Made by a program: the position numbers and the translations under genes. A DNA stretch of 48,461 bases from positions 1 through 48,461 of IMG/VR virus record IMGVR_UViG_3300006100_000019; one strand, 5' to 3'. Below, piece after piece: positions 1 through 44,877 of this stretch. The notes beneath the pieces are model-generated. The model was not told the DNA's origin. It ran no database searches and saw only the letters and a list, made by a program, of their open reading frames with translations. The DNA is from a virus. Positions within the stretch are counted from its first letter, which is position 1. Each line of letters starts with the position of its first letter.

Positions 1-798
1 CTAAATTATGTTGAGGTCAACCGTCAACTAAGAGCCGAAGAAGCCGATCAGACTTTTATAACGACTTCAAATGCGTTAGCCATGAGTATAAACCAAAAGG
101 TAAAGGAAGATGCTGCAGTTAAATCTCTTGAAGAAGAGACGACTGTTAATTATCTTACTACTGAGACTCAATTTAAAGGAAGCCCAAATTACATACAAAA
201 TCTAAGCCTGATTTCAAGTCAAGGTGACGTGCTTAAATCGAAAGGCTATAAGAAAGAGATCTACTATTACGATCACCTTAGGGCAAATAGCAAACCAATC
301 GATAAGTTTAAGCACTTTTACATGGCTCCATTGAAGAGCGATGATCGCAAACAGACGACATATTTGGTACCAGAAGAAGCAAGCCTAGCGGATAACACTA
401 TAAAAAAGTGGATGAATATAGACTATGGAAACACCCATGTTGAGTGGAACGCTGCACGCTTGATAAACACGCACAACATGAGCGAGTTAGATAAAATAAA
501 GCTAAAAGTTTCGCTCTATAACATAAACTTTCAAGTGGCTAGAGGTTACACAATACCGGTGTACATCACAGTCCAACAAGCTGAAAAGATTCTAAAAGCA
601 ACTGACGTTACTCAAGACACAGTGAGTCAAGCAACGGATGCTCCAAGTCTTACCGAACAAACAATTGACACGCAGCTTTCGGGTAGTTATTATGTGGCTG
701 GTGCAAAGTATCACTATGATTCTCTGCACCCAAACGGACTCTACACTGAGCTCTACCTAGCACGTAGAGAGTGGAATCCTTCGAAAAAAACTGAATAA
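1..798 (+). CDS. Structural (baseplate-region) protein, 5'-partial
   Basis: The frame is open from base 1, so the gene starts before the window. An ATG at 82 gives a 238-residue product, but 27 further in-frame codons precede it without a stop, and 82 is therefore only a fallback start. No family is recognised. The protein is soluble-looking, with no signal peptide or membrane segment, and has Tyr/Asn-rich beta-type stretches near its end. It stops 2 nt before a tube-like protein and is followed by the gp5-like spike, so a baseplate or tail-tube role is likely from context alone. The function is inferred from neighbours, not from motifs. Confidence 0.6.
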   Translation, partial: LNYVEVNRQLRAEEADQTFITTSNALAMSINQKVKEDAAVKSLEEETTVNYLTTETQFKGSPNYIQNLSLISSQGDVLKSKGYKKEIYYYDHLRANSKPIDKFKHFYMAPLKSDDRKQTTYLVPEEASLADNTIKKWMNIDYGNTHVEWNAARLINTHNMSELDKIKLKVSLYNINFQVARGYTIPVYITVQQAEKILKATDVTQDTVSQATDAPSLTEQTIDTQLSGSYYVAGAKYHYDSLHPNGLYTELYLARREWNPSKKTE

Positions 799-1887: not shown

Positions 1888-2679
1888 ATGCTGCAGACTC
1901 ACGATATTGAAAGAAGAGAAATGGACCTTATTGACAAGCAATTCCTAGGAGTTGTGGAGGATCCAAATGACCCTAGGAAAGAGGGACGCGCAAGGATCCG
2001 AGTAGTGAGTGTATACGACGACATACCGACTGAAGACTTGCCTTGGGCATATCCTAAGCAGAAGAGCGCTTACTTTGGACAGGAGGGTCGTGGAGGATCG
2101 CTTTCAGTCCCAAAGAAGGGAGCAGTTGTTGCAGTAAGATTCGATAACGGAAACCCATACTGTCCAGAATACTATTCGCTGCATGAAATAGCTGAGGACA
2201 TACGGACTGAACTGGGAAAAGAGGGCGAATATTTGGGCTCTCACGTTGTCCTATTTGACGGAGACGAAGAGCTAAAGATCTGGTTCACCATAAGTAAGGG
2301 AATCACGATGCAGCTAAAGGGATCCCGACTAAATATCGGCCGCGACAAGGCGATCACGATAGAGCACGACCAGACACAATCAATAATAGAATTAAGAGGA
2401 GGCAACATCTCAATCCATTCAAACTCAAGGATAGAGATGACTTCCGGTAGCGAGATCGAAGCTGCATCTAACGATATTTGGATCAACGGTAACTTTGTAA
2501 GAGTAGGACATAACCCAGTCAACGGGCCAGCAGTGTTAGGAGACTCTCTATTCCTACTTTTGACTGCAATGGCAAGCGCAATAGACGGCAAGTTCCCACC
2601 AACTCCAGGAGCAATAACCGCTGCTGTGAATGCAGCCAAGGAAATGGTCCTGTCAAAGACCGTCAAAGTTTCAATGTAA
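1888..2679 (+). CDS. 5: Baseplate central spike protein, gp5-like without lysozyme domain
   Basis: The N-terminal OB-fold of T4 gp5 is recognisable: FLGVVEDPNDP, then GRARIRV, PTEDLPWA, and a GSLSVPKKGAVVAVRFDNG strand. In T4 gp5 the OB-fold is followed by a lysozyme domain and then a triple beta-helix needle. Here the protein is only 263 residues (T4: 575) and passes straight into a beta-prism-like stretch (about residues 130-215, ISIHSNSRIEMTSGSEIE). No lysozyme catalytic region is present. The role would be to form the membrane-piercing needle at the tail tip. The ATG at 1888 is the outer start; an ATG at 1921, with a purine-rich leader (gaagagaa), gives a product closer to the family N-terminus and may be the true start. 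Confidence 0.88.
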   Translation: MLQTHDIERREMDLIDKQFLGVVEDPNDPRKEGRARIRVVSVYDDIPTEDLPWAYPKQKSAYFGQEGRGGSLSVPKKGAVVAVRFDNGNPYCPEYYSLHEIAEDIRTELGKEGEYLGSHVVLFDGDEELKIWFTISKGITMQLKGSRLNIGRDKAITIEHDQTQSIIELRGGNISIHSNSRIEMTSGSEIEAASNDIWINGNFVRVGHNPVNGPAVLGDSLFLLLTAMASAIDGKFPPTPGAITAAVNAAKEMVLSKTVKVSM

Positions 2680-2742
2680 TAAAGGCACGCAGGAACGCTC
2701 TTTTGCCAAAGGTTAGGTAACTAATTAAATTAAGGGATCGAT

Positions 2743-3258
2743 TTATTCTGGAGTCCCAGAATCTCCCTGAGAACCCCCGTTCTGCTTTGAGATGAACTGC
2801 TCGATGTCAAATCCCAAGTGTCTTACACAAAACATCAAATAACCTTCATATAGTGCCTTGATCTCAGACTTGGTGTAGATCGAATAGAGGTATTTTGTGT
2901 AACGAGTGATGCTTCTAAGTCGGCTCTCCAGAAACTCGTCCCTCAACTCATGAAGATCAAGAGCAGCAGCTATTTCCCAAGCATTGTCCCAAGCATCGTT
3001 TTCAAGCCATATGATATTGTTGCGCATCGCACTGATACAGCTTTCTCCGCGCACTGGATAGATTCCAATGGTTTGGGTAACGTGACCTAGTTCGTGTAGA
3101 AGGTAGATGATGCCTACCCTAGTAAGCTTTGATTTCTTTGGAATGTAGATTGTTGCTTCGAGTGGATCGAACTCAGCCGCGTAACCAGTATAGCTAATGG
3201 TGACTGAATGCGAGCTAGCTATTTTCTCTAGCTCTTCCCAAATTTTAGGTATGTCCAC
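2743..3258 (-). CDS. Zincin metallopeptidase, ImmA/IrrE-like
   Basis: A HELGH motif at residues 55-59 is the HExxH zinc-binding and catalytic signature, set in a hydrophobic helix (IIYLLHELGH). Glu86 in LENDAWD is a plausible third zinc ligand, as in ImmA/IrrE-type peptidases. The 171-residue length fits a stand-alone peptidase domain with no DNA-binding part. It is the last gene of the minus-strand run starting near 9360, and its 3' end faces the gp5 gene across 63 nt. Possible roles are cleavage of a host regulator or of a phage protein. The substrate cannot be inferred from the sequence. Confidence 0.8.
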   Translation of the reverse strand: MDIPKIWEELEKIASSHSVTISYTGYAAEFDPLEATIYIPKKSKLTRVGIIYLLHELGHVTQTIGIYPVRGESCISAMRNNIIWLENDAWDNAWEIAAALDLHELRDEFLESRLRSITRYTKYLYSIYTKSEIKALYEGYLMFCVRHLGFDIEQFISKQNGGSQGDSGTPE

Positions 3259-9394: not shown

Positions 9395-10393
9395 ATGAAG
9401 AATCACTATCTTGTCCTTGGAGTGTCAGAGTCAGCGACTGACGATGAAATAAAAAAGGCATACCGAAAGATAGCTCTAAAATACCACCCTGATCGCAATC
9501 CTGGAAACAAGGAAGCCGAGGATAAGTTCAAGGAAGCGGCAGCTGCATACGAAGTGATCGGCGATCCTGAAGCAAGAAAAAAGTACGATCTCCTAAATTC
9601 TCCGGCAAGTTCACAGAAGAGGTATAGTGATTTTAACGATTTTGTGGGAGGATTTGGTGCCTCAAGATTCGGTTCAGAGTACAGCAGGGCTCAAGCCCAG
9701 GCAAGAGCGGCCAGATCACAGGGTAAAACCCATGCACCACCGCCCGACCCATCCTACTTGGACATAACTCTGGATGCCGAAATTGACCTGGCAGATGCGA
9801 TCCTAGGAAAAAAGATCAACATCACGTTTAAGAGAAAAAAAGTAGACTATAAGAAAACTGCTGCAAGCCAAATCGCATACACCAAGACAGACGAGGAGAA
9901 AGAGATCAATATATACTTTGACCTTAGGAGAACCTATGTCACTCTTAAAAAAGAGGGAAATAAGTTGAGCACAAAGGTTAGGCTTAATAGACTAGGTCAT
10001 GAGGACGTCATAAATCGCATGAACATATTTGGAGAAGACGAACAGTATCCTCTGACTGGCGATCTCTATGTGACAGTCACAATAGTGATCCCGGAAGGAG
10101 TCGAGATTGATGGCAATTCAATAATACAGAGGGTAGACATACCGCTCACTAAGGTGTTGTTTTCTGGCGAAAAAGTACAGATCGAAACGATTATCAATAA
10201 AAAATACGAAGCGACCATTGATCAGCCCAAGTCAATGAGTGATATTAAGTTTGTGATCCCATCACAAGGAATATTGAATGCATCTGGCGAATTAGGAAAT
10301 TACGTAGTGAAGTTTAACGTGGTAGTACCAGATTTGAGCTCTTTAAAAAAGAGTGAAGTTGAGCTTTTACGAAACATTCTAGCTAATACTTAA
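9395..10393 (+). CDS. dnaJ: DnaJ/Hsp40-type co-chaperone without zinc finger
   Basis: A complete J domain occupies residues 1-70 ([33 protein letters not shown]), with the HPD triad at 31-33 that stimulates DnaK ATPase. A low-complexity Ala/Arg/Gly/Ser linker (about 70-125) replaces the usual Gly/Phe segment. From about residue 130 the beta-rich C-terminal substrate-binding part begins ([24 protein letters not shown]). The CxxCxGxG zinc-finger repeats of classical DnaJ are absent, as in CbpA-type proteins. At 332 residues it is a full co-chaperone. It lies directly upstream of the head genes, so a role with host DnaK in capsid or scaffold folding is plausible. Confidence 0.93.
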
Positions 10394-10424
10394 CGCAGAT
10401 CTCAAAGTTTTTATCAACTGCCTT

Positions 10425-10441
10425 AATAAATAATAAAAAAA
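10425..10441 (+). promoter_or_regulatory. Late-type promoter element (AATAAATAAT)
   Basis: aATAAATAAT followed by a poly-A run, 16 nt before the TTG start of the prohead protease gene. The core resembles the T4 late promoter TATAAATA, and near-identical copies precede other virion genes at 14224, 22825, 24164 and 45698. Confidence 0.55.
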
Positions 10442-10450
10442 TTTAAGGCT

Positions 10451-12436
10451 TTGACAAATTCAAACTTGAGCTTTGCTGAACCTAATAATGATTGGGTTCT
10501 TATTGTTGAAAACGTTGGTGAAGCGCTAACTCCAGTTCAATCTGGCGATAAAGGCGCTGTCCTTGAAGGAGTTTGTGCTGTATTCGGCAGGATGAACAAC
10601 AACCGTCGAGTATACGAAAAAGAAGAATACCTTCCCCACCTTTCTTATCTTAATGAAAAAATCTCAAAGCGCCAGCTTGTTGGAGATCTTGATCACCCAC
10701 CTCACTTTGATGTAAGCCTAAAAAGCGCATCACACCTGATTGAAAAACTAAGCTATGATGGCGGTGATAAAGTTTATATTAAACTACGTATCCTAGAAAA
10801 CACGCCAAACGGAAAGATCGCAAAAGCTCTACTTGATGGAGGAGTACAACTCTCAATATCTTCAAGAGCTGCAGGTCAAGTAAACGAAAGCGGCCGTGTA
10901 AAACTACAGAGAATCTTTACTTACGACCTAGTAGGTGAACCTGGATTCACAGAAGCAATCCTTAAAAAGACAGTAAACGAATCACTTAAGAACAACTTCC
11001 AAATGATTACTGAAAACTATAATCATTTGAAAGAATCCTCTGTAGTTAACAGTAAGGGATTAGTTGACATATCTGAAAGTCTTAATTTTGATGAGAATTT
11101 CAAAATTTACAAGATAAATAAAACTAATGAAGATCTAGGACTAGCTTTCCAAGCATCTCAAACACCACAAAAAAATAGCGCAAAAATGGCCGAGTATGTA
11201 ACAAAAGAACAGATGGACCAGTACTCAGAAGTTCTGAAAAGTAAGTTCACGCAAGTTCAAAATGAGCTAAGAACTCACAAACAATTGTTAGAATCAAAAA
11301 ACGAAGGAACTGATTCAGCTGATCAAATTAAGCTTGTAGGATTTGTAAACTACCTAGCTGAACAGCTTGAAGGAGTGATCAATTATGCTGACTATCTTTC
11401 TAAAAAGGTAAATCAGAATATTAAGTACACTGAGCATGTTGCTGAAACAACAAACAACTCCATTGAATACTCTAACTACGTTGGAGAGAGACTTAATCAA
11501 AGCATTGCTCACCAAGACTATATAGCTGAAAAGCTCAACCAGAACATCAACTATTCTGAGTACATCAAAGAAAATCTAAACAATGCTATCAAGTATCAAA
11601 ACTACTTGGCTGAAGAGTTGGATAAAGGAATACAGTACACTGAATACGTTGCTGAAGGTGCTAACCGTGGTCTAGAGTACAGTGATTACCTAGCAGAACA
11701 CCTTAATCTTAACCGTGACTACGCTCAATACCTTTCTGAAAAGCTAGGTCAGAGCATTGGATATACTGAATACGTTGTTGAATCCCTAAACGGAGGAACT
11801 TCAGTAAACGGCAAACGTAACGTTCTTAACGGAATTGAAAAGCTTGACGAATCTACATCAGTTGATGCTCTCATCGCTAAGGTAGACCAAGTGATCACTG
11901 AAGTTACAGATAAGTCTTCAAAAGCAGTTCTTGAATCAAGGTATCCATTCCTTAAAGTTATGAGCGAGCCTAAGCAAAAAGCATTCTACGCTCTTGGAAC
12001 AGAAGAAAAACAAGCAATTGTTGAAGCTCTTGGAGCATCTATCTGGTTCAACGAAAACGATGTAGTTGGAATCATCGAAGCAGTTCTTAACCACAAGAAT
12101 CAAAACCTTCCTGCACACGTTCGTTTCATGCCAGCTGAATATAAAGAAGTTTGGAATTCAATGAACGAAAGCGAGAAGAACAGAATTCACGCAAAATCTC
12201 AGTTATATAGCATAAAGACTCCTTATCAAGCCAAAGCATTTTGGGATGAAATGGATCTTAGAGGAGTTAACGAGAGAATTGAAAGAGAAAAATCAAACGC
12301 TAAAATACAAGCACAACTCAACGAAAGCCAAAGTACAGAGGGCCTAATACCTGTTAATCAGGTTGTTGAGATGCAGAGAGGTTACTCTCACAATTACCTA
12401 GAAATGCTATCTCGCCAAGCTAGCTATCGCCAGTAA
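10451..12436 (+). CDS. 21: Prohead protease-scaffold fusion (gp21 + gp22-like)
   Basis: Residues about 35-180 form a gp21/herpes-type prohead serine protease. They include AVFGRMNNNRRVYEKEEYL near the N-terminus, VGDLDHP with candidate His82, GVQLSISSRAAG with candidate Ser137/138, and VGEPGFTEA. Residues about 245-661 are a helical, charged scaffold-like region. It contains ten exact-length 14-residue repeats (310-449) of the form I-x-Y-x-x-Y-[LV]-[AS]-E-x-L-N-x-x. In T4 the protease (212 residues) and the scaffold gp22 are separate genes. An in-frame ATG at 11186 has the leader caaaaATGGC used by the capsid and sheath genes and could yield the scaffold alone (416 residues). The start is TTG at 10451, the only suitable codon after the promoter and before the protease core. 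Confidence 0.9.
   Translation: MTNSNLSFAEPNNDWVLIVENVGEALTPVQSGDKGAVLEGVCAVFGRMNNNRRVYEKEEYLPHLSYLNEKISKRQLVGDLDHPPHFDVSLKSASHLIEKLSYDGGDKVYIKLRILENTPNGKIAKALLDGGVQLSISSRAAGQVNESGRVKLQRIFTYDLVGEPGFTEAILKKTVNESLKNNFQMITENYNHLKESSVVNSKGLVDISESLNFDENFKIYKINKTNEDLGLAFQASQTPQKNSAKMAEYVTKEQMDQYSEVLKSKFTQVQNELRTHKQLLESKNEGTDSADQIKLVGFVNYLAEQLEGVINYADYLSKKVNQNIKYTEHVAETTNNSIEYSNYVGERLNQSIAHQDYIAEKLNQNINYSEYIKENLNNAIKYQNYLAEELDKGIQYTEYVAEGANRGLEYSDYLAEHLNLNRDYAQYLSEKLGQSIGYTEYVVESLNGGTSVNGKRNVLNGIEKLDESTSVDALIAKVDQVITEVTDKSSKAVLESRYPFLKVMSEPKQKAFYALGTEEKQAIVEALGASIWFNENDVVGIIEAVLNHKNQNLPAHVRFMPAEYKEVWNSMNESEKNRIHAKSQLYSIKTPYQAKAFWDEMDLRGVNERIEREKSNAKIQAQLNESQSTEGLIPVNQVVEMQRGYSHNYLEMLSRQASYRQ
11186..12436 (+). 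CDS. Putative internally initiated scaffold protein (nested in protease gene)
   Basis: The in-frame ATG at 11186 (MAEYVTKEQMDQY) is preceded by caaaa. This is the same context as the starts of the major capsid (12466) and sheath (45727) genes. The 416-residue product would contain the 14-residue repeat array and the helical C-terminus but no protease. This mirrors lambda C/Nu3, where the scaffold is read from an internal start of the protease gene. It is predicted from context only. Confidence 0.45.
   Translation: MAEYVTKEQMDQYSEVLKSKFTQVQNELRTHKQLLESKNEGTDSADQIKLVGFVNYLAEQLEGVINYADYLSKKVNQNIKYTEHVAETTNNSIEYSNYVGERLNQSIAHQDYIAEKLNQNINYSEYIKENLNNAIKYQNYLAEELDKGIQYTEYVAEGANRGLEYSDYLAEHLNLNRDYAQYLSEKLGQSIGYTEYVVESLNGGTSVNGKRNVLNGIEKLDESTSVDALIAKVDQVITEVTDKSSKAVLESRYPFLKVMSEPKQKAFYALGTEEKQAIVEALGASIWFNENDVVGIIEAVLNHKNQNLPAHVRFMPAEYKEVWNSMNESEKNRIHAKSQLYSIKTPYQAKAFWDEMDLRGVNERIEREKSNAKIQAQLNESQSTEGLIPVNQVVEMQRGYSHNYLEMLSRQASYRQ
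11378..11797 (+). repeat. Ten tandem 42-bp (14-residue) degenerate repeats in the scaffold region
   Basis: In-frame units with pattern I-x-Y-x-x-Y-[LVI]-[AS]-E-x-[LV]-N-x-x run without insertion from residue 310 to 449 of the fusion protein. The protein pattern is strongly conserved while the DNA has diverged. This suggests old duplication under selection for a regular helical or coiled structure. Confidence 0.85.
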
Positions 12437-27434: not shown

Positions 27435-31001
<3,567 letters not shown>

Positions 31002-31248: not shown

Positions 31249-33834
31249 ATGGCGATATACAAATCAATACAATCCGGTAACTTTACTTCTTCTTCGACTT
31301 GGGGAACTCTTGTGAATTATGTGGCAACTGGTCCGAGTCTTGTTGGTGTATCCACCTCTGTTGTTGCAAGCAGTACGGTTACAGGCCTAAGCAATACGAT
31401 AAATGGAATTATGGTGCACTTGGGTTATCGAGTCGCTTCACCGACGGGTACAATAACCTGTCAACTTTACAATTCAACAACCTCGACTATAATTCAAACG
31501 GTGACAATAAACGCAAGTGACCTACCTGCAGATTCTGCAGTCGGCACTGTAAATGGAGGCTGGGTGCATTTTAAGTTTGGATCAAATACTACCCTTAATG
31601 CGGCTCAAGCATATAGCGTAAGATTAGTTGCAAGTGTAGCCAATCAGGCATATTTCTATAATGCAAGTGGTACTGACTGGAATAGAGCATTTGTGAGCAC
31701 GACTGGAAGTGTTCCTACGACTGGTGATTCCATTCATATTGGTGGAGATTATTCAAGTGCAGGAGTGAATAACAGCTACACGGTGACAATGAACAATACT
31801 ACCGGTACTCTATTGCTTGGATCAGACGGCTCGGGAATTTACGGGATATCGCCAGGGTCGAATGGCATTACAATATCTTCAAAGGGTACTCTTGCATACG
31901 GAACCGCAACTTCAACAAATTACTTTTTAGGTACTACTGCAAACATCACAGTATATTGCGGCGGTACTTTACAAATGGGCAGTTCAGGGGCAGCAATACC
32001 CGCTTCATCGACAGCGGCTTTGCTTATCTCAAGTTCAACTGCTGGACAGTACGGCTTGTGTGTTGCAGGTAACCTAACTACATATGGAGCAACTAAAACA
32101 GTAAAGGCAAAATTAGCTGCGGACATATCAGTAGGTGCGACTTCCGCAACAACCGATGTGAGCACCGGCTGGTTAAGCGGTGATGTGATAGCGATCGCTG
32201 GAACAACTCGAACCGTTGCAGATGGTGAACAATTAACCCTTTCAGGAAATGCATCGGGCACAACTATAAGTTTTACAGGGTCGACTCTTGCTGCACATGG
32301 AGGAAATTCAACAACCCTGATTCAAGCTGATATTATTAACCTTACTAGAAACGTAAACATATATGGTGCAAGCGCAACACTTGTTTCGTATATCACAACA
32401 CCAGGTCAATCACCAACGGGTATTAATAACCCAAGCATATCAACATATTACACCGGATTCTACAACCTAGGAACAGCATCGGCAGTTAAACCAATTATGG
32501 CTATAAGTAATCCAACAGCCAATGCTGATGTGAGATATTGTTCTTTTTACGGAACAAGTGTTGCAAACGCATATGGTGTTTATATTTATGCTGCCAATAA
32601 TAGTACTATTAACTTCAACTATAATGTTTGTTACAACGTACTTACTTGGGTTAATACTGGTTTTAGTACCATCTATAATTCAACCACGCTTGATAATAAT
32701 GTTGGTATTAAGACTACAATAGCAATGAACTCACCAAATATTACCTTTACAAACAATACAATTGCAAATGGTACTGGTATTGGTATAACGATAGGTTCTC
32801 AAACGGGTACAGTCGGTTATGGTACGTTTAATAACATATTAGCATATGGGAATAGTAATGTTGGTGTTTCTTTATCAACCTCATTTGGAACCGCGTCAAA
32901 TATAACAGCTTGGAGAAATAACGGTGCTGGTTTATATTTAACAGCTGTTCAAGCTATTGAAAATCAACTTATGATCCTAAGTGGAGGTACATTATTTGGT
33001 AATGGGTATGGTGTACAATCGGCGGGTCTAAACAATACAGTTTTAATTCAAAACTTTAATATTTATGGAGGTTCTACACTTGTACAGGGTGGTGGTTTTT
33101 TCCAACAAGGTGGTGCTAGTGACTATATAACATTTTATAATTCCACTCTTGGGCCTAACCATTCTATTTCTGATTTATATTTTGCATCAAGTCCATTCGG
33201 TAACATCAGCTTTATAAACTGTACATTTAGTTCAACAACAAAAATAACTACTGGTAACTTAACTAGAAGCCCTAGTGGATTAGGTGTGAGTTCAATAAAC
33301 GAAAACGGTGTTGCGGGTAGTATGTTTGCTTACAGTCAATATGGAACGTCAAGACTTGACACAACAATATATAATACTTCAAGCCCTTCTCTTAGACAAA
33401 CACCAACAACTGCAAACGTTAAGTTTGGTCACGCAAGCGTAAAGATAAACGTTGCAGCAGGAGCGACGCCTTCAGTATCTGTGACTGTGCGAAAATCTGT
33501 AGTTGGAGACGGAACTGCGTATAACGGAAATGCACCAAGGCTTATGCTTCGACCTAATATCCAAGCGGGAGTAACCAGCTTTACTGTGCTGGCAACATCA
33601 GCAGGTTCTGCGGGTTCTTGGGAAACGCTTACTGCAACTCTTCCAGCGCCTAGCGTAAATGCTGTATATGAGCTCTATGTTGATTGTGATGGAACTACCG
33701 GCTGGATCAATATTGATGACTGGAGCACAACATATTATGCTGAAACTCAAGGACTTAGTTATTGGAAAGATGCACAGCCATATGTCGCATTATCAGCAAC
33801 AAGACCTCAAATATCCTCGTTCTTTGTAGGATAA
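31249..33834 (+). CDS. Tail fibre/spike protein with beta-helix-like region
   Basis: The 861-residue protein is rich in Ser, Thr, Asn and Gly. Residues 1-150 form a beta-sandwich-like start (ITCQLYNSTTSTIIQTVTIN, YSVRLVASVANQAYFYN). From about 165 to 660 there are short repeated strands ending in Asn or Gly (NSYTVTMNNTTGTLLLG, NITFTNNTIANGTGIGITIG). These resemble the parallel beta-helix of phage spikes and adhesins. The C-terminal 150 residues (VSVTVRKSVVGDGTAYNGNAPRLM...YELYVDCDGTTGWINIDDW) look like a carbohydrate-binding beta-sandwich. No depolymerase catalytic set was identified. Its last 28 nt overlap the convergent glycosyltransferase gene. Confidence 0.82.
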   Translation: MAIYKSIQSGNFTSSSTWGTLVNYVATGPSLVGVSTSVVASSTVTGLSNTINGIMVHLGYRVASPTGTITCQLYNSTTSTIIQTVTINASDLPADSAVGTVNGGWVHFKFGSNTTLNAAQAYSVRLVASVANQAYFYNASGTDWNRAFVSTTGSVPTTGDSIHIGGDYSSAGVNNSYTVTMNNTTGTLLLGSDGSGIYGISPGSNGITISSKGTLAYGTATSTNYFLGTTANITVYCGGTLQMGSSGAAIPASSTAALLISSSTAGQYGLCVAGNLTTYGATKTVKAKLAADISVGATSATTDVSTGWLSGDVIAIAGTTRTVADGEQLTLSGNASGTTISFTGSTLAAHGGNSTTLIQADIINLTRNVNIYGASATLVSYITTPGQSPTGINNPSISTYYTGFYNLGTASAVKPIMAISNPTANADVRYCSFYGTSVANAYGVYIYAANNSTINFNYNVCYNVLTWVNTGFSTIYNSTTLDNNVGIKTTIAMNSPNITFTNNTIANGTGIGITIGSQTGTVGYGTFNNILAYGNSNVGVSLSTSFGTASNITAWRNNGAGLYLTAVQAIENQLMILSGGTLFGNGYGVQSAGLNNTVLIQNFNIYGGSTLVQGGGFFQQGGASDYITFYNSTLGPNHSISDLYFASSPFGNISFINCTFSSTTKITTGNLTRSPSGLGVSSINENGVAGSMFAYSQYGTSRLDTTIYNTSSPSLRQTPTTANVKFGHASVKINVAAGATPSVSVTVRKSVVGDGTAYNGNAPRLMLRPNIQAGVTSFTVLATSAGSAGSWETLTATLPAPSVNAVYELYVDCDGTTGWINIDDWSTTYYAETQGLSYWKDAQPYVALSATRPQISSFFVG

Positions 33835-34907
33835 CCTAGAGCTGACACAATTATGCGTCGATTATCGTTAAGTCGAGCCCGGTGTTGACTGTAATATTTT
33901 GAATTGAGTCGTAATGCATCGACTAGGTAAAAGGCCTCTTCGTATTCCTTTATCCAATATGCAGCGATTGCAAGCTCGTCTTTTACCCTTGGTCCATAGC
34001 ACTCAGTGTGAATAAAAAGTCGATCTAAGGGGATCCTTGTAGAATTACATATCTTCAATAATGAGTATGCCTGTTGCCACATGTGTAATCCCTTGAAATA
34101 CATCGCAAGCTCAAAGATGGGTTCTATTCGAGTGGGACGTTGCATCCATGCAGAAAACATGGAAGACTCAATCACTCTACTGTGCTTTTCTAATTGAATA
34201 GCACACATTCCAAGTTTAAATTGAGAGTACCAGAGTTCCTCGTCCCACTGGCTCACTGCGATACACTTATGATATTCAGTTTCGGCCGATACATAATCAC
34301 GGGTGTCATAGTAAGACTGCGCTAGATAAAATCGATTTCTAGCATTTAGTGGATCCTTTTCTAGAGATTCAGTAAGAAGAGAAATGTCTCTTGTAAATTT
34401 ATCAGACTTGGATCCACCGTCTCCGTGATCAAGAATAAATGCTTCAGGAAGAGTTGCGGTGCGAGTCTCCCTATAGTCAATATCAAAATACTCGTGTGTC
34501 GCACCGATTGACTTCCAATCAGCCGCAGAATTTAGGATTCGTATGTTTTGATAGGACATGGAAGTAGATCTCTGTTCAATTAAGTAGCCGTCAATCATTA
34601 AGCTTAGTGAGCTCTTTATGTCCTTTGCCTTGAGTTCCATATCAGCATCGATCGTTAGTACCCAATCTGCCATGCCTCGAGCGAGCTCAAAGGCTTCAGT
34701 TCGGTTGGCTCCAAAATTTATCCACGGTCGACGATACACTTTTCCTGGGATCCCAGAAAGCTTGGATTCAATTATTGCGATGGTGTCATCAGAACTTCCG
34801 GTGTCAATAATGCACCAGGTGTCAATGTGAGGGATGACTGAATCTAGAGCACGAGCAATCACTCGACTCTCGTTCTTCACTATCATGTTTAGGCAAACAG
34901 TATTCAT
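33807..34907 (-). CDS. GT2-family glycosyltransferase with C-terminal TPR-like helices
   Basis: CLNMIVKNESRVIARALDSVIPHIDTWCIIDTGSSDDTIAII (5-46) is the donor-binding start of GT2 family enzymes, and ADWVLTIDADMEL (about 80-92) carries the DxD metal site. Residues about 175-350 are alpha-helical pairs in TPR style (NARNRFYLAQSYYDTRDYVSAETEYHKCIAVS). This arrangement is common in glycosyltransferases that act on proteins or glycans. It is the last gene of the replication operon, overlaps the gp46 gene by 4 nt, and faces the fibre/spike gene. Decoration of a fibre is a guess from that position. Confidence 0.88.
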   Translation of the reverse strand: MNTVCLNMIVKNESRVIARALDSVIPHIDTWCIIDTGSSDDTIAIIESKLSGIPGKVYRRPWINFGANRTEAFELARGMADWVLTIDADMELKAKDIKSSLSLMIDGYLIEQRSTSMSYQNIRILNSAADWKSIGATHEYFDIDYRETRTATLPEAFILDHGDGGSKSDKFTRDISLLTESLEKDPLNARNRFYLAQSYYDTRDYVSAETEYHKCIAVSQWDEELWYSQFKLGMCAIQLEKHSRVIESSMFSAWMQRPTRIEPIFELAMYFKGLHMWQQAYSLLKICNSTRIPLDRLFIHTECYGPRVKDELAIAAYWIKEYEEAFYLVDALRLNSKYYSQHRARLNDNRRIIVSALGYPTKNEDI

Positions 34908-38521: not shown

Positions 38522-40000
38522 TTAAAGTGCGCCAAAGAGCTTATCATAGTCCTCATCGGTTTGAGGCGAAGTTAAATTATCTTTTGCATTCAATATTGTG
38601 TGTTCGTTTCTGACCTCATCGGCTAGACGGTTTGCCTCTGAATCATCACTGTAAAATTCGCTGTTTGGACCAAGTTCCTCAGTAAGCCTAAAGAAATCCT
38701 TGACCATTGTATAGAACTTGTAGCTCTCTTCGTAGCCGTTATCACGATTGGCGATAATTTTTATTTTCATACGGCTTTCCAATGGGCTGCGCATGAGACC
38801 AAAAAGAGAATCGACTGTGTGAATAAGACCGAAAGATTCGGCAACTGAGTCCATTCCCAAGTCAAAGTCATTTATTGATTCTCGCTTTACTTGAGTAGCA
38901 CTTATTATGCACCATTCGTTTCTCATTGCGACTCCTCTAAGCTCTTCGGAAATTGCCTTTATCTTTTCATAAAGTCCGTTCTGATCCTTAATTGGACGAA
39001 GTAGGTTAAGATAATCGACAACGATCACCTTGAATTTTTTATTCATCTTGTTCTCAAGACGCAAGAAGTAGTTTTCAATGTCTATCGCAGTAGCATTGCC
39101 AGTGGGAAAGTCTTTAACGATTAGATGCCCGCCCTTTTTAAAAGAGGATTGCATTTCAATGAGTTTATTCTTGATCTTTTTTGAAGCAGTATCATCTGTG
39201 ATACCAGAATATTCATCCGATGGGATGCTTAGGATATTGGATCCAATACGCTTCATATATTGTCTCTCAGGAAGCTCAACTGTCACAAGGCCAGTAACGT
39301 TACCCATTAGAAAAGATCGAGCTGCGATATTTCCAAGAACCATTGACTTTCCGACTTTCGGTCTACCTTGAAATACGACTAGCGATTTTGGATTCCAGCC
39401 TCCGCCTAGACACTTATCAAAAAACTCAAAGCCGGTTGGGCTACCCGTTTTTGCAAGCTGAATGTGTGCTTCTGGACTAAAAAAGTCCAGTCCAGTATCT
39501 CCACTAGAAAAGTTTATTGCAAGCTTACTGCTAATGTCGTTTCTGACTTTTTCTGAGATCTTATCAATGTTTTCAGGATCGATAGACGTCGTCTTTAGGT
39601 ACGTAAGTAGGTCAAAGACAGTAAGGTTAAGGTTTCTAAGTAGGATGAAAGAACGTACGTATTTGTAGAGATAATCGTAGTTATACTCACGTAAGTTAAA
39701 CGCATATAGGTCATCAAAGTCGTCATCATCTATGCTGGTATTTGTTAGTTCAAGGTAACTCTTAAGTTCCTTTCGATTTGGGATCTTACCGTACTCTTTA
39801 AAGAACTTAAGAGACACTTTAAATGACTCTTGTCGGTTTTCTTCGTTAAAATAGGTTGGCTTTATCATTGTGATAAGCTCTTCCTGTCTTAGTGAGTCAT
39901 GGCTTTTGGGTTTTAGCTCATTGTTTTGATTATCATGGCTAAGAATGAAATTCCAGACCATTTTCTCAAGCGATTCAATATTTTCGGTAAAGTCTATCAT
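38522..40000 (-). CDS. 41: Replicative DNA helicase, gp41/DnaB-like
   Basis: The 492-residue protein (T4 gp41: 475) has a helical N-terminal domain (1-160) and a RecA-type motor. FDKCLGGGWNPKSLVVFQGRPKVGKS has Walker A at 212-219, the VTVELPERQY segment follows, and Walker B FKVIVVDYLNLL has Asp329. SATQVKRESINDF, then GLMRSPLESRMKIKIIANRDNG (arginine finger region), complete the motor. It unwinds the lagging-strand template 5'-3' as a hexamer with primase. The 4-nt overlap with the 109-residue gene suggests coupling, perhaps to a helicase-loading or accessory protein. Confidence 0.95.
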   Translation of the reverse strand: MIDFTENIESLEKMVWNFILSHDNQNNELKPKSHDSLRQEELITMIKPTYFNEENRQESFKVSLKFFKEYGKIPNRKELKSYLELTNTSIDDDDFDDLYAFNLREYNYDYLYKYVRSFILLRNLNLTVFDLLTYLKTTSIDPENIDKISEKVRNDISSKLAINFSSGDTGLDFFSPEAHIQLAKTGSPTGFEFFDKCLGGGWNPKSLVVFQGRPKVGKSMVLGNIAARSFLMGNVTGLVTVELPERQYMKRIGSNILSIPSDEYSGITDDTASKKIKNKLIEMQSSFKKGGHLIVKDFPTGNATAIDIENYFLRLENKMNKKFKVIVVDYLNLLRPIKDQNGLYEKIKAISEELRGVAMRNEWCIISATQVKRESINDFDLGMDSVAESFGLIHTVDSLFGLMRSPLESRMKIKIIANRDNGYEESYKFYTMVKDFFRLTEELGPNSEFYSDDSEANRLADEVRNEHTILNAKDNLTSPQTDEDYDKLFGAL

Positions 40001-40326
40001 GGTATTGTGTAAAAAGTGAGTATTCCTTTATTTGTAATTAGCATCTCGTCACCGGTAACTGATATAAAATCACTAGCGATAAGGCTTCTTAGTCTTTTAA
40101 CTAAATTAAGCTTAAAGGTTTCGTCCTGAAGGCGATCGCCAAAGACATATTTTAGAGTCTTGGACGAAAACTTTAGCTTTTGAGGGTCAAGCTCCTTGTT
40201 TTTCATCTCAATGACCCGCAATAGGTACTGAGATATATCAAAGAGGACCCCAAGATCGTCTTGTAGGTCCTCATATTGATGTACATTAAGGTAGTATTTA
40301 ATAGGCAGATCAGAGCGTAGGTTCAT
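39997..40326 (-). CDS. Hypothetical protein, possible winged-helix fold
   Basis: The 109-residue product ends with LRSLIASDFISVTGDEMLITNKGILTFYTIP. This has the helix plus two-strand wing arrangement of winged-helix DNA-binding proteins. The first half is helical (EDLQDDLGVLFDISQYLLRVIEMK). It is sandwiched between UvsX (17-nt overlap) and gp41 (4-nt overlap). A helicase loader or recombination mediator would fit that position. No known family could be assigned. Confidence 0.65.
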   Translation of the reverse strand: MNLRSDLPIKYYLNVHQYEDLQDDLGVLFDISQYLLRVIEMKNKELDPQKLKFSSKTLKYVFGDRLQDETFKLNLVKRLRSLIASDFISVTGDEMLITNKGILTFYTIP

Positions 40327-41515
40327 TGTTTGTGTTTAGTGTTTCAAGTTCATCATCCTCCATTTCAATGATTCCGTCTTGAGTTTCAGGAAACTTAAAG
40401 GTTGGCTTGATTATCTTTTCATCAAGTTCCTTTAAAACTTCTTCTGTAAAGAGACGAGAAGAAAAGAATTCCTTAACTGGCACCTCATCTCCATTGTGAC
40501 GTACAATATAATTCTTAGCTTGTATGCTCGGTTTTGCATAGTAGACAGCTCCGCCTACTTCAAAACGATGGCACTTTTCCTGATCTTCAGGTTTAAGTTT
40601 GGCGTGCTCTTTTTCAGTCAACTTAGATGCCTTAACGACGCCGCAGTTTTCCCAGTTAACGAACTGTTCAAGACCAACATATGGATTCATACCCTTGTGA
40701 AAAGAGATATGAAACTCAATGTCAATTGGTTTAGCCAATCGATTTTTTCTGGTCTTAGATCGAACAATGATCCCAGTAGTCGTCTTGTTCTCATCACGTA
40801 AAGTTCCTTTGCTTAGCATTAGGATGATTGATGCTGAGAACTCAGGACCGCCGCCACCAGACATGCCCTTCGGAGTGTATTGATCCATTGAAGCATAAGT
40901 GTGGTTCGTAAAAATAAAAGGAACTTTAAGGTTAGAAAGATCCAGTGTAAATGATTTGAAAAGGGCTCTCATTTCTTTTGAGCGTAGACCCATATCAGAT
41001 GCATTTTTACCGGCTTCCATGTCCCTCTTACTCTTATCAGTATCAAGCATACCGACTGAATCGACAAACATAGCAAACTTTAAACCTGGATTTTCCTTTA
41101 TTGTTTCAATAAAGTCATTGATGAAGAACTTAACTTCACTAATGTAGCCCATACGTAGGTATTTGAGCTTATCAAGTTCAACTCCAAATTTTATGTAGTC
41201 AGAGCGATCGATTGCACCTTCGGTGTCTATGTAAAATACGTAGTACCCTTTCTTTTGTAATTCACGAACTGCATTCAAACATAAAAAGGTCTTACCTGCA
41301 CCAGAATCACCAGCGATACCGATGCTTCGAGTGTTTGGGTAACCGCCAAAAAGCGTGCCTGACATTTGTGCATTAAGCAGATAGTTTCCAGTTGGAATAT
41401 ATTCATCTATGTCTGAAAAACCCATTAATTCAACTTTTGACTTGACCTTCTTTTCCAAAAGATCGTTAAATTTATTGAATGCATCTAGTGCAGGGTTGCC
41501 AGTGGATTTAGCCAT
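40310..41515 (-). CDS. uvsX: RecA-like recombinase UvsX
   Basis: At 401 residues (T4 UvsX: 391), it has Walker A GDSGAGKT at 69-76, VFYIDTEGAIDRSDY (the Glu that activates water), FAMFVDSVGMLDT (Walker B) and KVPFIFTNHTYASMDQYTPKGMSGGGGPEFSAS, which contains the L2 DNA-binding loop region. It forms filaments on single-stranded DNA and drives strand exchange for recombination-dependent replication. gp46 and gp47, which make its substrate, are in the same operon. The acidic C-terminal tail (EMEDDELETLN) is typical of RecA regulation. Confidence 0.96.
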   Translation of the reverse strand: MAKSTGNPALDAFNKFNDLLEKKVKSKVELMGFSDIDEYIPTGNYLLNAQMSGTLFGGYPNTRSIGIAGDSGAGKTFLCLNAVRELQKKGYYVFYIDTEGAIDRSDYIKFGVELDKLKYLRMGYISEVKFFINDFIETIKENPGLKFAMFVDSVGMLDTDKSKRDMEAGKNASDMGLRSKEMRALFKSFTLDLSNLKVPFIFTNHTYASMDQYTPKGMSGGGGPEFSASIILMLSKGTLRDENKTTTGIIVRSKTRKNRLAKPIDIEFHISFHKGMNPYVGLEQFVNWENCGVVKASKLTEKEHAKLKPEDQEKCHRFEVGGAVYYAKPSIQAKNYIVRHNGDEVPVKEFFSSRLFTEEVLKELDEKIIKPTFKFPETQDGIIEMEDDELETLNTNNEPTL

Positions 41516-43063: not shown

Positions 43064-43450
43064 TTATTGTTGATTATTTTTAATAAGTTGTTCACCCAAT
43101 AGGTCTAATTCGGTGAGTGTGGCATTTCTTTGAGACTCATTGATGAAGTTCTCAACTCGAGTCAGCAGTTCAGAAACTTCAAGGTCAGTTGCTCTAATTA
43201 CGTTTAGCACATTAAACTGAATGTCTCTAACCTTTGATGTTGCGTATGCAAGGACGTGGTATTCCCGGTTTAAGTAAGTATCGATTGACTTAGCTGCTCC
43301 GTTTATTAGCGACATGTCTGCGCTTGATGGAAAGCCCATTAAAAGAATAGGTTTTGCTGGGCTAGATTGAAGTCCGTCAATGCGTGCTTCTAGTTCCTTT
43401 ATCTTTTCGGTAAGCTGAGCATATGCTTCATCATGTATTAGTGCTGACAT
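43064..43450 (-). CDS. Hypothetical coiled-coil protein downstream of DNA polymerase
   Basis: This 128-residue protein has an N-terminal coiled coil (LTEKIKELEARIDGLQSS), a hydrophobic turn (ILLMGFPSSADMSLINGA) and two further helices (VSELLTRVENFINESQRN). No polymerase motif B or C is present, so it is not the missing half of gp43. Its ATG lies 2 nt after the polymerase stop codon. Function unknown. Confidence 0.68.
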   Translation of the reverse strand: MSALIHDEAYAQLTEKIKELEARIDGLQSSPAKPILLMGFPSSADMSLINGAAKSIDTYLNREYHVLAYATSKVRDIQFNVLNVIRATDLEVSELLTRVENFINESQRNATLTELDLLGEQLIKNNQQ

Positions 43451-43452
43451 CG

Positions 43453-44877
43453 TTACTTTGAATTTTTTAAACTCTTTATTTCACCCTGGGTTTTAATACG
43501 TTCGTCGTATAATTTAGTCAAGATGGTTCTAGCAACCGAGTCGGTAGAGCTAGAAAATAGAGTATCGTTTTTCGTGTGGATCTCCGATCCAGAAAGCTTA
43601 ACCGTTCCCTTCTTTCCCAAGTAAGTATCCGGTGAGATATTGAATTGGATCTGGATATTTGGATACATTGACGAAAAGTCATAACACGAAACATAGTTGT
43701 AGTAATCTGGCTCGGGCTTCTTTACGTAGGCACCTTCATAAGTTGCATTGATGTCATTTGAATCTCCCCAAGGAAGCTTCATCATTCTCTGGTTCTTGGT
43801 TAAGAACTCTCTGCACATTAGGATCTCAGCGATATACACTGGACTAAATACCTTGTTCACGTCAACTTGAGCAACGTTTGCGATCGAGTATGCAACATCT
43901 AGCATCGAAAGCTTGTCCTCTATCAATTTCACAAGGATAACGTCAATCACGTTATATAGAGTGAATAGATAAGTATCCTTTTGAAAAGCAAGAAAGCTTG
44001 GATATTTATGTTTGAGTTTTGCGACGCCTAACACTAGGGTTGCGATGTAATCAAGCTTATAGTTCTCGACAACTTTGAAAGGTTTTAGTTTTTCAAAAAC
44101 CTGCATGTAATCCAAAACTCCCAAGTGAACTGGGATCTTGTTCTTTGAGACAAGCGATCTTGACGGCATGTTTACCACTGAATCGACTTTCATGTTGCGA
44201 GCTCGATTCATTAGGTATTTCCAGTCAAAGTCAGTAACGTTCCAACCTGTCACAAATGAAAACTTGGGCATGATGTTATGGAAGTAACACTCAAGTAATT
44301 CAGTCTCAGTCTTAAAGAACTTGTACTTTATTTTAAATTCTTGTTGGAATAAAGCTGCATCCTGAGGACGCAACGGTGTAGTGTTACGAAAGTACTCATT
44401 GACCTCTTTTTCCATGCGGACGATGTCATCGGCTGAGAGCCCTTCCGGATTTCCATCATCGTGCAAAATAGAAAGTATGTAGACAGTATTGTCCTCATTA
44501 CAAAAAGAGACGAGGCCGACTGGCATTCTAGCTTTTTCTGGATCCGGGAAGGAATCGTCGATCAGCTTGATCTCAATATCAAGATAGGTCTTTTTTGGAA
44601 GATTGTCAAAGCTATAGATCGCAGAAAGCTCTTCTGTAGTAAGCTTTTCCTGAATAAGCTCCTGAATTCTAAATTGAGTTAGGTACTTACCTTCAGTTGG
44701 GCTCTTCTTTACGCATTTGCCATCCCAGTTCTTAGTGGTAGTTGCAGTTGCTGATTCCACCCAATTGTATCGTTCATGATCCAGAACCCTCTTACGAATA
44801 AAAGCGATTCTTCCTGAGGCATCATAATATGAGATGGTTAGTGTATTATCTTCTAGGACTTCTGCGCCTATTATCAT
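43453..44877 (-). CDS. 43: DNA polymerase family B, N-terminal part (gp43A-like)
   Basis: The exonuclease domain is intact. Exo I is TYLDIEIKL (Asp100, Glu102), Exo II is TGWNVTDFDWKYL (Asn213, Asp218) and Exo III is LYNVIDVIL (Tyr308, Asp312). Polymerase motif A is SCYDFSSMYPNIQI with catalytic Asp400. The chain stops at residue 474, in the start of the fingers. Motif B (K-x3-NS-x-YG) and motif C (DTDS) are missing; T4 gp43 has 898 residues. The stop is followed 2 nt later by an unrelated gene, so this is a clean gene end. Aeromonas T4-type phages are known with gp43 in two pieces (43A and 43B). The C-terminal piece is not in this window. Confidence 0.93.
   Translation of the reverse strand: MIIGAEVLEDNTLTISYYDASGRIAFIRKRVLDHERYNWVESATATTTKNWDGKCVKKSPTEGKYLTQFRIQELIQEKLTTEELSAIYSFDNLPKKTYLDIEIKLIDDSFPDPEKARMPVGLVSFCNEDNTVYILSILHDDGNPEGLSADDIVRMEKEVNEYFRNTTPLRPQDAALFQQEFKIKYKFFKTETELLECYFHNIMPKFSFVTGWNVTDFDWKYLMNRARNMKVDSVVNMPSRSLVSKNKIPVHLGVLDYMQVFEKLKPFKVVENYKLDYIATLVLGVAKLKHKYPSFLAFQKDTYLFTLYNVIDVILVKLIEDKLSMLDVAYSIANVAQVDVNKVFSPVYIAEILMCREFLTKNQRMMKLPWGDSNDINATYEGAYVKKPEPDYYNYVSCYDFSSMYPNIQIQFNISPDTYLGKKGTVKLSGSEIHTKNDTLFSSSTDSVARTILTKLYDERIKTQGEIKSLKNSK

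Follow-up and report, generated by a model that had tools for sequence, protein, structure and literature searches.

The viral record IMGVR_UViG_3300006100_000019 of IMG/VR (positions 1 to 48,461, a 48,461-bp stretch analysed in full and referred to here as the window) encodes, at 43453..44877 on the minus strand, a 43A-like protein of 474 amino acids that is the N-terminal half of a T4-like family-B DNA polymerase. It is very probable that this gene, referred to as A, specifies one subunit of an obligate two-chain, non-covalent heterodimeric family-B replicase, the partner of which (B) is encoded in relatives by a separate and distant gene.

The A open reading frame (ORF) matched PF03104 over residues 99–276 (E 9.7e-11) and PF00136 over residues 373–469 (E 4.5e-10), the latter only across profile positions 35–140 of 453. 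As in other T4-like family-B polymerases, it carries the acidic residues of the 3′-5′ exonuclease and palm motif A: D100-I-E102 of Exo I (44572..44580, minus strand, as are all features of A), the Exo II aspartate D218 (44224..44226), the Exo III aspartate D312 within Y308xxxD312 (43942..43944) and, by alignment with RB69, D400-FSSMYP with the catalytic aspartate of motif A (43660..43680). The Exo I motif, D218, Y308, D312 and D400 were invariant among 15 relatives, which bears out the three exonuclease motifs and Asp400 named in a preliminary description of this DNA. The last helix of A in an AlphaFold2 model (predicted local distance difference test, pLDDT, 84), as assigned by DSSP, is the fingers helix N (residues 448–473; 43459..43536), which includes R460 (43498-43500), the equivalent of RB69 R482 by alignment and likewise invariant among the 15 relatives. 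The model superposed on residues 4–496 of RB69 gp43 (Z 28), and RB69/T4 gp43 was the best structural match to both halves. A therefore includes motif A, within the first palm half, as well as the first helix of the fingers, whereas helix P, the remaining palm with motif C and the thumb are absent; the earlier statement that the palm, fingers and thumb half is missing held for the latter elements but not for the motif A part of the palm or for helix N.

The 3′ end of the gene reads AAA AAT TCA AAG TAA cg ATG, that is, a TAA stop, two bases and the start of the next ORF, exactly as had been described. That ORF (43064..43450, minus strand; 128 amino acids) is weakly conserved and has no polymerase motif. 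Since the contig is metagenomic, such a stop could in principle stem from a mistake in assembly or sequencing, or from decay of the polymerase gene. Related A loci numbered 158, of which 78 were found by searching viral contigs with the A protein and 80 by a broader search based on a more divergent alignment. Among the 78, the closest was 100% identical in A and most were 50–86% identical; the complete genes ended at a homologous place, at 457–480 amino acids (491 in the most distant). The 80 further loci ended at 465–501 amino acids, with none unsplit (0/80) and none reaching motif B. The ratio of non-synonymous to synonymous substitution (dN/dS, Nei-Gojobori) between relatives was approximately 0.02–0.1 for A and B alike, although dS was saturated in some pairs. 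Given the shared stop site and this low ratio, A is a conserved, functional gene under purifying selection. A frameshift or assembly error, already refuted for the relatives, is rejected by the sharing of the stop among 158 loci from many samples; with the catalytic residues invariant, and with downstream ORFs that are syntenic in relatives and do not encode polymerase, the chance that error or decay accounts for the truncation is negligible.

The window lacks motif B (KxxxNSxYG), motif C (DTDS) and the thumb, and no second PF00136 match was found anywhere else in the 48,461-bp record, so that the reported lack of a second piece in the rest of the operon, down to 33807, extends to the whole window. 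A search for the missing fragment had been proposed, and was made with PF00136 in longer related contigs. Each sufficiently long contig held two PF00136 genes, one being the end of A and the other a distinct gene that spans what is left of the profile. In 21 related contigs (18 checked pairwise and three more of ~271 kb) there was exactly one gene with NSxYG and DTDS, on the same strand as A and 37.7–67 kb downstream of it. The distant gp43B that the preliminary description had called for is thus seen in the relatives, though not in the window. Four contigs of 270–271 kb, each with one A and one B, had differing start points and an A-to-B distance of 43.2–43.3 kb modulo length; the constancy of this distance suggests that they are complete, circularly permuted maps.

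The left end of the window (1..82) matches, by gene-by-gene synteny, base ~33,100 of the 207-kb contig G002, ~50,070 of G003 and ~49,360 of G005, in which B lies at ~17,650, ~34,010 and ~64,700 respectively; B is therefore expected 15–16 kb outside the window, and the window virus probably has its B past this contig end. B is likewise absent from G001, a 131-kb relative in which A lies 14 kb from the contig end, because this contig, like the window, ends too near A. The neighbours of A are uvsX, a dnaB-like helicase gene and SbcCD genes, while B opens a unit in which a gene for a DnaG-like primase follows. Ahead of B lie genes of the opposite strand, including one that looks PhoH-like by eye. 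From these differing surroundings, A and B belong to different transcription units.

Several further observations were made on the B loci and the large relatives. In L350 (IMGVR_UViG_3300042197_004886; 10001-11893) the B match spans ~1.9 kb as opposed to 1.4 kb, suggesting an in-frame insertion, and in L108 a UvsW-like helicase gene upstream of B (2281-3252, minus strand) apparently runs into Hint/intein-like sequence. Several large relatives encode, besides A, a separate protein of ~250 amino acids with a weak PF03104 match (G013:C1:100993-101154, G006:C1:84150-84290 and equivalents). A phage-like contig of 254 kb with both halves (L245, CAIWBA010000291.1) had been assigned to the genome bin of an uncultured Bacteroidetes, which hints weakly at the host; no cultured relative was found.

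That A and B lie in different operons, and that B has a C-terminal segment of ~100 amino acids extending past its match to RB69, would also fit separate roles, A being a stand-alone proofreading or repair exonuclease and B acting with another partner while a host or unseen polymerase replicates the genome. Against this, A retains under purifying selection both helix N and motif A, the only known role of which is polymerisation, and neither half alone has a full active site. Moreover, no full-length PolB, which had been named as a finding that would refute the two-piece reading, was found in the large relatives, and neither family-A polymerase (PolA) nor PolIII-alpha was found in 11 of them, in searches that detected the positive controls. 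We regard separate roles as quite improbable.

The two halves tile the common polymerase fold. On PF00136, A covers positions 35–147 and B positions 146–450, with no loss between them. In searches with profiles of solved structures A covered RB69 108–489 and archaeal PolB (Tgo/KOD-type) up to ~469–471, and B covered RB69 553–792 and archaeal PolB from ~468–477. RB69 gp43 is a single chain of 903 amino acids, and only its fingers extension (about residues 490–550) is lacking from A and B together. An AlphaFold2 model of a relative's B (pLDDT 72) superposed through residues 41–373 on RB69 582–895 (Z ~21). By sequence alignment and these models, the break is located in the fingers tip loop, between helix N on chain A and helix P on chain B. 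As incoming deoxynucleoside triphosphate (dNTP) is contacted in RB69 by R482 and K486 from helix N and by K560 and N564 from helix P (PMC3564110), a break at this position would leave the nucleotide pocket shared between the chains. R460 (R482 in RB69) is kept in A, whereas the K486 position is Gln in the window, compared with Lys in 95 of 101 A halves.

In the arrangement that we propose, chain A would supply the N-terminal domain, the exonuclease, the motif A part of the palm and helix N of the fingers, and chain B, from the far-downstream first gene of the B-primase operon, would contribute motif B on helix P, palm motif C (DTDS) and the thumb. The two polypeptides would be produced from different operons and associate non-covalently, with helices N and P packing side by side in the absence of a connecting loop. 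The dNTP site would then be made up of the Asp of motif A and the Arg of helix N, both from A, together with the Lys/Asn of motif B and the Asps of motif C, all from B. Association into an active replicase has its one precedent in Aeromonas phage 25, the 43A and 43B proteins of which co-purify, with polymerase activity, as PMC2988022 recounts in citing Petrov 2010; by analogy, A and B may do likewise. The trees of A and B were nearly the same (Mantel r 0.98 for 21 genomes and 0.97 for 18 core genomes; 0/9999 permutations).

A number of points weigh against the heterodimer. Agreement of the trees is also expected from plain vertical descent on one genome, and we infer both the interaction of A with B and their activity. 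The window's own B is deduced from relatives and not seen. Confidence in the model of B is moderate (pLDDT 72), with the helix P region poorly modelled; and with Gln in place of RB69 K486 one triphosphate contact may differ in the window protein. A bolder proposal, which we consider rather doubtful, is that assembly, timing or fidelity of this ancient clade-wide replicase, with its fingers cut at the tip loop and its halves dispersed, is controlled by balancing the two chains.

A full-length polymerase could also be restored if the halves were joined covalently in trans, through a split intein or a split group I/II intron. Fractured phage genes are mended by split inteins, a natural one occurs in the PolB of Aeromonas phage Aes123 (PMC11923092), and intein-like sequence is inserted at DTD|S in the B halves of certain huge phages, LR756500 and Lak-A2. 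A polymerase fractured by a split intein, of the kind in Aes123 and Nanoarchaeum equitans, would be expected to have an intein N-part closing the first piece and a C-part opening the second, and the relatives of the window have neither. A stops right after helix N with no space for an N-part (~120 amino acids in Aes123), the next gene beginning 2 nucleotides on, and B begins within ~10–30 amino acids of motif B without a C-part. No Rfam match to an intron or structured RNA was found at the break, whether in the window or, around B, in L182 and L201. Because neither end has intein parts and no intron was found, covalent rejoining is very improbable, even slightly more so than separate roles, and the two chains of the proposed heterodimer presumably remain unjoined.

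The closest described counterparts are the gp43A and gp43B proteins of the Aeromonas T4-type phages 44RR2.8t, 25 and 65, in which a family-B replicase is also encoded by two ORFs (A ~500 and B ~390 amino acids). In 44RR and 25 the fingers are interrupted past helix N and ahead of motif B, as they are in the window clade, according to an alignment that took in both 44RR halves, 43A of phage 25 and RB69. The Aeromonas halves lie 2–850 nucleotides apart, with a GIY-YIG gene between them in phage 25, in agreement with the preliminary description of nearby pieces; in contrast, those of the window clade lie 38–67 kb apart in different operons. Further, the Aeromonas halves largely keep the RB69-like fingers extension that the window-clade halves are without. 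In a tree of A halves a fully supported branch separated the window clade, its sister groups and the huge-phage halves from T4-like phages and the Aeromonas halves. A common origin with the Aeromonas split, with all split A halves forming one clade, was rejected (approximately unbiased test, p 0.0001). The split of the window clade is phylogenetically apart from that in Aeromonas phages, as well as old and clade-wide.

Nearer relatives show a range of spacings. In the sister groups L079/G027 and L458, A, one gene of ~250 amino acids and B follow one another within ~1 kb; in the sister groups L433, L448 and L422 the order is the same with the addition of ribonucleotide reductase-like genes (named by eye), and the halves are 3–5 kb apart. 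The conserved protein of ~250 amino acids is encoded directly before B (L079:3368-4129, L458:3271-4038, L433:9650-10414, L448:10535-11278, L422:11328-12086 and L111:20415-21179); its candidature as a sliding clamp was not supported by PDB hidden Markov models, PHROGs or hhalign with gp45 (probability 1%). Prevotella phage Lak-A2 and the uncultured huge phages LR756500, LR756502 and LR756504 are split into A and B at the same point and cluster with the window clade. Their halves are ~10 kb apart in LR756500 and, on opposite strands, ~133 kb (LR756502), 222 kb (Lak-A2) and 282 kb (LR756504) apart. Motif C is interrupted as DTD|S by intein-like sequence in the B halves of LR756500.1 (L127) and Lak-A2 (L116:5887-8038). 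On the simplest account, the polymerase gene would have split long ago next to a neighbouring gene, and its halves would then have moved apart gradually. An unsplit polymerase, that of MaF61, was placed within the jumbo-phage split group, its branch being very long and its support weak (83/93); a tree excluding it from this group was only marginally rejected (p 0.033). As the placement of MaF61 is without firm support, the jumbo-phage split may have had a single origin, or MaF61 may represent a re-fusion.

The half-length PHROGs families 2062 and 1918 match the A and B proteins of the window clade, and the split proteins themselves are therefore already in databases. Among the open-access papers searched, none described a phage polymerase with its halves dispersed in this way, although other papers could hold such an account; the Aeromonas and archaeal cases turned up, and nearby cases are endonuclease-split polymerase genes in Jug phages and split PolIII in jumbo phages. 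Two genes also encode the split PolB3 of Methanobacteriales and N. equitans, and in N. equitans they are not neighbours (PMC4104785). The same source ascribes these archaeal splits to inteins, N. equitans employing trans-splicing, whereas the window clade is without intein parts; the likeness drawn here is in the separation of the genes.

Within the window, the gene row of A also encodes a UvsX-like recombinase (40310..41515, minus strand; phrog_97, E 8e-51) and a DnaB-like replicative helicase (38522..40000, minus strand; phrog_19, E 4e-57). At the end of this replication row, beside SbcC/SbcD-like genes, is a gene for a putative beta-1,4-glycosyltransferase (33807-34907, minus strand; phrog_13126). 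A collagen-like tail fibre protein of 1188 amino acids is encoded at 27435-31001 on the plus strand, and is barely conserved in relatives that are otherwise syntenic.

The dispersed arrangement appears to be new, whereas a split gp43 in Aeromonas phages and a split PolB in some archaea were already known. It should interest specialists in replication and in phage genomes. In practice, annotation pipelines will label such genomes as polymerase-less or mis-assembled, and that in trees built on polymerase as a marker half of the gene is lost. Changes in this fingers loop of archaeal PolB lower fidelity (PMC4150786); a natural enzyme without the loop would directly test the need for continuous fingers in fast and accurate synthesis. 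The clade shows that a replicative family-B polymerase cut through its fingers, with the halves scattered over the genome, is an arrangement that is stable across long phage evolution.
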